5,196 nt of DNA from Dehalococcoidia bacterium. Lineage in GTDB: Bacteria > Chloroflexota > Dehalococcoidia > JAUSJJ01. The notes below the pieces were generated by a model. The model was not told the origin of the DNA. It saw nothing but the letters and a program-made list of their open reading frames with translations, and searched no databases. The DNA lies in assembly GCA_030647705.1 (NCBI GenBank), contig JAUSJJ010000056.1, forward strand, positions 1 through 5,196. Reading direction: 5' to 3'. Below, piece by piece: positions 4,208 through 4,832 of the stretch; position 1 is the first letter of the stretch; the number at the start of each line of letters is the position of its first letter. A program made the translations under genes and the position numbers.

Positions 4208-4222
4208 ACAGGGAGGAGTAAT

Positions 4223-4627
4223 ATGCAGACTAAGACCATAGACCTGAGCACGGCACGGCGCATCGAGATCAAGGACGCCAGGGACCGCTGGGAGAAGCAG
4301 GCCACAGGTGAGGTGCTGTTTCTAGATGTGAGGGACCCCGAGAGTTTCGAGCACATCCATGTCAAAGGCGCCACCTCTTTGCCGCTCAACCATCTGATGG
4401 CCCACAAAGATATCCTGCCCAAGGATGCGGAGATAATAACCTACTGAACCTGACCGAACGAGGAATCCAGCGCCCGTGCGGCGCTGCTGTTGATGCGGGT
4501 CGGTTTCAAAAATGCGAAGGCGCTTAAAGGAGGGCTTCAGGACTGGGTGAAAGCCGGCCACCCGGTTGAGCCCGAAGAGGCGCGAGAGCGGGTGTTGCAG
4601 GAACTGCAGGAGATGGGAGAGGTATAG
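4223..4627 (+). CDS. Rhodanese-domain protein with two in-frame TGA codons: probable selenoprotein with U-x-U active site
   Basis: Reading through two TGA codons gives a 134-residue single-domain rhodanese, the normal size for the family, which transfers sulfane sulfur (or selenium) via an active-site cysteine. Residues 34-50 carry the N-terminal signature L-D-V-R-D-P-E-S-F-E-H-I-H-V-K-G-A. Residues 94-114 carry the C-terminal signature G-F-K-N-A-K-A-L-K-G-G-L-Q-D-W-V-K-A-G-H-P. Between them the active site reads I-I-T-Y-(TGA75)-T-(TGA77)-P-N-E-E-S-S-A-R-A-A-L-L-L. Known relatives of this subtype have Y-C-x-C-P-N-E, so the two TGAs (4445-4447, 4451-4453) replace exactly the catalytic Cys and the second Cys. 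No other stop or frameshift occurs before TAG at 4625, and the protein has no other Cys. A SECIS-like hairpin follows at 4468-4486. Start: ATG with GGGAGGAG at 4211-4218. A pseudogene or a double sequencing error is the alternative, but two nonsense changes confined to the two motif cysteines would be a remarkable coincidence. Standard calling would give a meaningless 74-residue fragment. Confidence 0.85.
4452..4505 (+). promoter_or_regulatory. Candidate bacterial SECIS element (selenocysteine insertion)
   Basis: CAGCGCC (4468-4474) and GGCGCTG (4480-4486) form a perfect 7-bp stem closing the five-base loop CGTGC. The GU in that loop is the position recognised by SelB in known bacterial elements. 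The loop G (4476) is 22 nt after the second TGA and 28 nt after the first, both inside the spacing seen for bacterial SECIS elements. A possible lower helix pairs GACCGA (4452-4457) with TCGGTT (4500-4505, one G-U pair), placing the second TGA at the base of the structure as in E. coli fdhF. The element lies within the coding frame, over codons for S-A-R-A-A-L, so GC-rich codon choice could produce the stem by chance. Confidence 0.65.
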
Positions 4628-4632
4628 GAGGT
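4626..4632 (+). promoter_or_regulatory. Ribosome-binding site overlapping the rhodanese stop codon
   Basis: AGGAGGT begins inside the TAG stop (4625-4627) of the rhodanese gene and is 5 nt from the GTG at 4638. Ribosomes that finish the full-length, TGA-decoded rhodanese arrive directly at this site. It fixes the start of the next gene and implies translational coupling of the two products. Confidence 0.7.
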
Positions 4633-4637
4633 CGAAC

Positions 4638-4832
4638 GTGGCGGAAGAGCTCAGATGTGAATGCGGACATGTTGCCGAAGACATGCTGGAGTTGGCCTCC
4701 TGCGCGAAGTGCGGCGCAGAGATATGTCTCCAGTGCGCGCACGTAGACCCGAAGACTTGTCAGATGTACTGTTATGCCTGTGCCCCGAAGAAGGCGTCAA
4801 GGCCTTCCGGACACAAACACACGGCGAAGTAG
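4638..4832 (+). CDS. Small Cys-rich protein, probable zinc-binding (unknown function)
   Basis: The 64-residue product begins V-A-E-E-L-R-C-E-C-G-H and contains nine cysteines (7, 9, 22, 25, 30, 33, 41, 45, 48) plus H11 and H35. The spacing C-A-K-C-G-A-E-I-C-L-Q-C followed by C-x3-C-x2-C resembles a pair of zinc knuckles of treble-clef or zinc-ribbon type, so two zinc ions are plausible; an Fe-S cluster is less likely. The tail is basic and His-containing (K-K-A-S-R-P-S-G-H-K-H-T-A-K). GTG at 4638 is chosen because of the AGGAGGT ribosome-binding site; an in-frame upstream ATG at 4566 lies inside the rhodanese gene, would add 24 residues of out-of-frame character, and has no ribosome-binding site. 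All nine Cys use TGT or TGC. The stop is TAG. I do not recognise a named family. Tight coupling to the rhodanese suggests a functional partner in sulfur, selenium or redox chemistry, but that is inference. Confidence 0.8.
   Translation: MAEELRCECGHVAEDMLELASCAKCGAEICLQCAHVDPKTCQMYCYACAPKKASRPSGHKHTAK

Follow-up and report, generated by a model that had tools for sequence, protein, structure and literature searches.

Does a rhodanese gene with TGA in place of both cysteine codons of its active site encode an enzyme with two selenocysteine (Sec, U) residues, or has it been cut short just before its active site? The question is raised by a gene at positions 4223–4627 of the 5,196-nucleotide (nt) stretch of DNA analysed here (the window), which is contig C39 of a metagenome-assembled genome (MAG) of a Dehalococcoidia bacterium (1.59 Mb, 69.6% complete). 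The gene and its main landmarks, with the type of evidence for each, are as follows.

4211–4218, + strand: Shine-Dalgarno-like sequence GGGAGGAG, 4 nt 5' of the ATG at 4223 (sequence reading)
4223–4627, + strand: rhodanese-domain gene, predicted double selenoprotein U75-T-U77, 134 codons plus TAG (Pfam, alignment)
4445–4447, + strand: UGA codon 75, aligned with the catalytic Cys of rhodaneses (translation, alignment)
4451–4453, + strand: UGA codon 77, second Cys of the CxC loop and also TGA in 50 CxU rows (translation, alignment)
4470–4484, + strand: hairpin resembling a Sec insertion sequence (SECIS), with a stem of 5 base pairs (bp), GCGCC/GGCGC, extended to 7 bp in the window (4468–4486) (covariation, RNAalifold, published rule)
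4475–4479, + strand: apical loop CGUGC of that hairpin (conservation across Sec rows)

In rhodaneses, the catalytic role belongs to the Cys that aligns with codon 75. The initial annotation had described a rhodanese frame of 134 codons interrupted by TGA at codons 75 and 77 only, and both translation and domain search agree with it: these two TGAs are the only stops inside the frame 4223–4627, in the context EIITY-U-T-U-PNEESSARAA, and the read-through product matches PF00581 (Rhodanese) over residues 23–110, both TGAs included, at 56.1 bits (cut-off 22.2). The coding pattern of codon-position GC persists on either side of the TGAs. We confirmed by alignment that TGAs stand at both active-site Cys positions. 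It had also been claimed that standard annotation would hide the active site of such a gene, and this is what happened to the nearest database proteins, P0002 and P0003, whose identities of 97% and 78%, respectively, refer to 55% of the query: both are 74 amino acids (aa) long and end at Tyr74, as judged from protein records only, the stop codon of P0003 not having been seen.

We then compared the gene with its relatives. A class-level search gave a match in 87 of 393 genomes (E ≤ 1e-10), and a phylum-level profile search gave one in 348 of 400 (E ≤ 1e-12), rows being taken from among the matches listed. The loci given by the searches were aligned together with 34 further gene places, mostly TGA rows, so the sample is partly selected for TGA; TAA or TAG at the two sites is invisible to the method, which cuts frames at them. 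The resulting alignment holds 106 domain rows scoring over 35 bits, 10 of which belong to named genomes outside the phylum. Sites 75 and 77 are TGA/TGA (UxU) in 13 rows, Cys/TGA (CxU) in 50, Cys/Cys (CxC) in 13 and TGA/Cys in none; the other 30 have different loop types. The comparison of homologues proposed at the outset thus finds Cys or TGA at both sites across aligned relatives, and the rhodanese subtype with Cys at both, which had been cited as background, is represented by the 13 CxC rows, with a C-T-C-P-N-E loop in Acidobacteriota and Betaproteobacteria. The initial annotation did not mention the CxU state, which outnumbers UxU among the fetched rows. The residue aligned with codon 75 is Cys in 90 of the 106 rows and TGA in the remaining 16; in the 50 CxU rows this codon is TGC (34) or TGT (16), each one base from TGA.

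Besides the window, the class or phylum supplied 12 TGA/TGA rows from 11 genomes, giving 13 such domains in 12 genomes and 10 families (G000, G088, G018, G007, G021, G027 twice, G507, G577, G472, G486, G500, and G528). Within the class sample, from which every listed row with at least two TGAs was fetched, UxU occurs in 6 of 393 genomes. CxU and UxU copies are found together in G500 and in G528.

Several rows have other arrangements of TGA, and three of them (L067, L128, and L129) were set aside as different Sec types of rhodanese. Locus L067 (G283:C19) is a rhodanese with two TGAs in YUMDGLUD, a UxxxxU spacing that resembles the published TsoB motif. In L128 (G719:C266) and L129 (G605:C493), a single TGA stands at the catalytic position within the loop YUNMxH, a Sec type other than UxU or CxU. 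L121 (G465:C92) and L130 (G472:C110) have the catalytic Cys and a TGA five residues on (YCTGATUGSS and YCSGSTUGES, respectively). L032 (G142:C34) carries tandem rhodanese domains in one frame with CTU in each, i.e., two predicted Sec residues arising by duplication.

If both TGAs are decoded as Sec, an insertion element is expected close behind them. A published rule for bacterial SECIS elements gives a stem of 4–16 bp, a loop of 3–9 nt with G in the first two loop positions, a distance of 16–37 nt from the UGA, and a minimum free energy of at most −7.5 kcal/mol (PMC13188914). The window hairpin accords with every term of this rule: it has 5–7 bp, the loop CGUGC, and −12.8 kcal/mol (4460–4494), with distances to the start of the loop of 21 nt from UGA77 and 27 nt from UGA75. 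Since both distances lie within 16–37 nt, one element satisfies the rule for both UGAs. The hairpin is common to the 63 TGA rows at one fixed distance. These rows, in codon register, comprise 61 distinct 54-mers, in all of which G occupies the second loop position, with U or G after it. The five-pair stem (codons 83–84 with 86–88) is paired in 302 of 305 cells, compared with a shuffle mean of 292 (0 of 5000 shuffles as high), and all but one of the five pairs show both-sided changes (1, 6, 0, 1, and 1 cells). Among the first 21 Sec rows, 99.0% of cells were paired, as against 21–63% in sliding controls and 61.5% in the 13 CxC rows; in this smaller Sec set, one of the five pairs had a both-sided change. 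RNAalifold recovers the same stem, and in folds it is in register in 13/13 UxU, 47/48 CxU, and 4/13 CxC rows. The hairpin, which the initial annotation lacked, is to our reading of the sequences the strongest added evidence that the codons are probably read as Sec.

A second line of evidence comes from the codons that a terminating ribosome would never reach. After codon 77, non-synonymous differences per site (0.14–0.33) are lower than synonymous ones (0.38–0.79) in all eight pairs compared, six of them UxU–UxU and two UxU–CxU, indicating purifying selection on the reading frame downstream of both UGAs.

The host also has genes for Sec synthesis. The MAG encodes a tRNA-Sec (78.4 bits, anticodon TCA), on which ARAGORN agrees, and a SelD (370 bits) that itself has one TGA in the context GSAGUASK. 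This is a U-x-x-K motif, which is listed for SelD (PMC13188914). An N-terminal piece of SelA is present at a contig end (PF03841 positions 1–73 of 367, 95.3 bits). A tRNA-Sec was found in 9 of the 12 UxU genomes; two of those without a match have other parts of the machinery, SelA and SelB in G027 and SelB in G500, the third being G507. G018 has tRNA-Sec and SelB, with no SelA match. Of the 12 CxU genomes of the class set, 10 have tRNA-Sec, and G320 has SelA and SelB. In the CxC-only genome G359, tRNA-Sec, SelA, and SelB are all below cut-off, no SelA was found in another five genomes of the class for which the fetched rows include no Sec rhodanese, and one of six CxC genomes of other phyla tested has tRNA-Sec.

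Some observations on the Sec genes stand apart. The Acidobacteriota genome of the CxC rhodanese L024 (G744) has a strong tRNA-Sec (74.7 bits). In L007 (1–1598), the tRNA-Sec gene of the host starts 2 nt after what appears by eye to be a thioredoxin reductase gene, itself preceded by a thioredoxin-like gene. Two SelB candidates were rejected: L001, the best TIGR00475 match in the host (176 bits), is EF-Tu by eye, and L006 is a short open reading frame (ORF) with a sequence unlike SelB.

Taken together, UGAs at the aligned Cys sites, a hairpin at fixed distance, selection beyond the UGAs, and host Sec genes, each established at the level of sequence, make a double selenoprotein very likely; the initial suggestion that both Cys are replaced by Sec is supported in this sense by homologues, hairpin, host tRNA-Sec, and SelD. 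We consider it probable that the gene encodes a single-domain rhodanese in which both active-site Cys codons are UGA, predicted to be read as Sec through one shared SECIS, and that one selenol of the U-x-U enzyme accepts sulfane sulfur (or selenium) from a persulfide, with the other selenol resolving it. The hairpin would decode both UGAs by recruiting SelB with Sec-tRNA twice, 27 and 21 nt from its loop. Sec75, at the position of the persulfide-forming nucleophile of rhodaneses, would attack the substrate; Sec77, which in the structure model lies two residues past Sec75 and just before the next helix, would then attack the selenosulfide of Sec75, with release of sulfide (or selenide) and formation of an Se–Se bond, which a thioredoxin-like donor may reduce. 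A resolving chemistry is suggested by three features: the window protein has no other Cys; in CxU relatives, Sec is confined to the second residue; and the stretch 75–84 contains no Lys or Arg and does contain Glu80, which is present in 74 of the 76 CxC, CxU, and UxU rows. In rhodanese, positive charges in the active-site loop hold thiosulfate (PMC9369223), and the window protein, lacking Lys and Arg at 75–84, does not have the loop expected of a thiosulfate:cyanide sulfurtransferase.

The same double selenoprotein may instead perform another chemistry, as a perselenide carrier feeding SelD or as a peroxidase-like enzyme or oxyanion reductase rather than a persulfide reductase. We regard this as a real possibility, although not the one we expect. 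Rhodanese can form a perselenide that is stable, and a role for it as the selenium source of selenophosphate has been proposed (PMC9369223); of the best 50 Foldseek rows, seven are persulfide reductases or persulfide dioxygenase fusions and the others are different rhodanese types, a mixture which shows that the fold serves several chemistries. However, two chalcogens paired in one loop favour redox resolution over carriage, and nothing here is decisive.

A number of points weigh against a double selenoprotein acting by this chemistry. As to the Sec genes that the initial annotation named for checking, tRNA-Sec, SelD, and the SelA piece were recovered, whereas the search for SelB in this 69.6% complete MAG gave none. 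Because tRNA-Sec is common in the class (over cut-off in 257 of 393 genomes under strict filters), its presence alone says little. The UxU genome G507 has no tRNA-Sec match and only a SelB-like fragment below cut-off, and the CxU genome G340 has SelB and neither tRNA-Sec nor SelA. The energy of the window hairpin taken alone is ordinary (z −0.19) in a GC-rich stretch, so the case for the hairpin rests on the comparison among relatives; in that comparison, part of the conservation is due to the protein, as the hairpin overlaps the conserved S-A-R-A-A codons, and the contrast between Sec and CxC rows is partly one of lineage, as the CxC control rows were drawn mostly (10 of 13) from other phyla. 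As to the chemistry, Lys or Arg occurs in the loop of 2 of the 13 UxU rows, and the structure model has Cys in place of Sec.

Read-through could also be real and UGA75 still not be a Sec codon. Near-cognate decoding might place Cys, Trp, or Arg there, or the codon might need an element of its own, the SECIS perhaps preferring one distance. UGA75 is indeed 6 nt farther from the loop than UGA77, and the same hairpin register occurs in CxU genes, where the nearer UGA alone is present; as for a second element, no search was made for one, and the folds covered 51 nt after codon 77. Nevertheless, 27 nt lies inside the published 16–37 nt range (PMC13188914), and a residue that is Cys in 90 and TGA in 16 of 106 rows behaves as expected of Sec/Cys exchange. 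We therefore judge this explanation unlikely.

Alternatively, UGA77 alone may be a Sec codon and UGA75 a recent stop mutation that leaves a 74-residue stub of a decaying gene. This would fit the excess of CxU over UxU among the fetched rows (50 vs. 13), the grouping of the UxU locus L111 with the CxU loci L102 and L110 at short branch lengths, and the presence of a CxU and a UxU copy in both G500 and G528; moreover, TAA or TAG at the codon-75 site would have escaped detection, since frames are cut there. However, TGA75 and TGA77 recur together across the 13 domains of 12 genomes and 10 families, the hairpin is in register in every UxU row, and the constraint after codon 77 holds for UxU–UxU as well as UxU–CxU pairs. 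Selection beyond codon 77 and a hairpin kept in register are not the pattern of a dead gene, and decay is thus hardly a plausible account. Reassignment of TGA to a sense codon in the host genome, which two in-frame TGAs in one gene might suggest, is next to negligible, given that the four other window genes checked have no in-frame TGA in 1,256 codons including stops, and TGA is thus not generally reassigned, that the other TGA gene met in the host, SelD, has its TGA in the U-x-x-K motif, and that the host tRNA-Sec has the anticodon TCA.

How might the U-x-U loop have arisen? On a tree of 73 domains, at least six changes (gains or losses) of UxU are needed. With only 105 columns for 73 rows and weak deep forks, we rely on the three changes forced by well-supported branches, of which L111, close to the CxU rows L110 and L102, is the clearest case. 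A single origin was rejected, as one UxU clade failed the approximately unbiased (AU) test (p 4.5e-67). Given that codon 75 of CxU genes is always one base from TGA and that these genes have the same hairpin, sharing an existing SECIS would be the simplest route. We find it rather likely that one SECIS decodes two UGAs six nt apart and that, repeatedly within the phylum, a single base change turned CxU into a diselenide-capable U-x-U. Double-Sec active sites, and with them a new redox form of rhodanese, would then have arisen through the sharing of a SECIS.

The Sec rhodanese is a known kind of protein, of which UxU appears to be a new variant. The table of a 2026 review gives five Sec forms of rhodanese: UxxS, UxxG (twice), CxU (NF041203), and UxxxxU (TsoB) (PMC13188914). 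The suspicion that Sec-containing rhodanese-like proteins had already been noted was therefore right, the CxU rhodanese being published. The term UxU does not occur in the main text of that review, nor a UxU rhodanese in its table. The double replacement, singled out initially as the part to check for novelty, was not found in the open-access literature searched; supplements and closed journals lay outside this scope, and an earlier listing is possible. Forms 1, 2, and 4 (UxxS, UxxG) also place Sec in the rhodanese loop, but singly (PMC13188914). The nearest known form is the third, NF041203 rhodanese_LYCAU, which likewise has a rhodanese domain with Sec on the second loop residue (PMC13188914). 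In NCBIfam scans of the window protein and of 10 relatives, this family scored highest each time, with values below its cut-off of 115 bits: 75.1 for the window protein and 61.2–109.6 for the relatives, which were scanned as domain pieces. It differs in being C-x-U with one Sec, whereas the catalytic position in the window is also TGA. The fifth form, TsoB (NF045694), is a rhodanese with two Sec residues as well, but it is a DsbD-like fusion with the second Sec five residues on, and the window protein scores 28.2 bits against its 805. The CxC rhodaneses of Acidobacteriota and Betaproteobacteria (L016–L025), with their C-T-C-P-N-E loop, are Cys homologues of the window protein, with two Cys in place of its two TGAs. 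Nearby Sec pairs, likely redox-active or metal-binding, occur in bacterial UxxU proteins (Prx-like, NF041115, FmdB-like), which have other folds and a three-residue step (PMC13188914). Selenoprotein P shares UxU with the window protein and differs in its fold, in being eukaryotic, and in its many Sec residues. Its SECIS elements lie in the 3' untranslated region. The presence of UxU in the animal protein is documented (PMC11818150, PMC3281104).

If the proposed reading is true, the window encodes a cysteine-free rhodanese in which selenium serves both as nucleophile and as its partner, and provides a natural case of one SECIS serving two UGAs at two distances. How strictly SelB needs its UGA–hairpin spacing, and whether it acts twice on one element, would then become testable. 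The related CxU/UxU pairs, of which two are pairs within a single genome, offer a comparison of Cys with Sec at the catalytic residue. The genes also illustrate a class whose active site is lost to standard annotation, which ends the protein immediately ahead of it.

One further gene in the window deserves mention.

4638–4832, + strand: 64-aa Cys-rich (zinc-ribbon-like) gene with nine cysteines (ORF, Shine-Dalgarno-like site)

The 64-aa protein has no Pfam or NCBIfam family above threshold, and a search of the fetched loci from L026 onward, five longer UxU neighbourhoods among them, gave no convincing homologue (best E 0.13). With no family and no convincing homologue in these loci, it was ruled out as a conserved operon partner. 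An Rfam scan of the window gave two chance-level matches, none reaching the gathering score, and no repeat was found between window genes at 1440–1740. An amidohydrolase gene lies upstream of the rhodanese gene. Downstream, a Shine-Dalgarno-like AGGAGG (4626–4631) overlaps the rhodanese TAG (4625–4627) and leads into the 64-aa gene at 4638, suggesting that the two genes share a message; together with the Shine-Dalgarno-like sequence before the rhodanese ATG, this overlap suggests that translation normally reaches codon 134.
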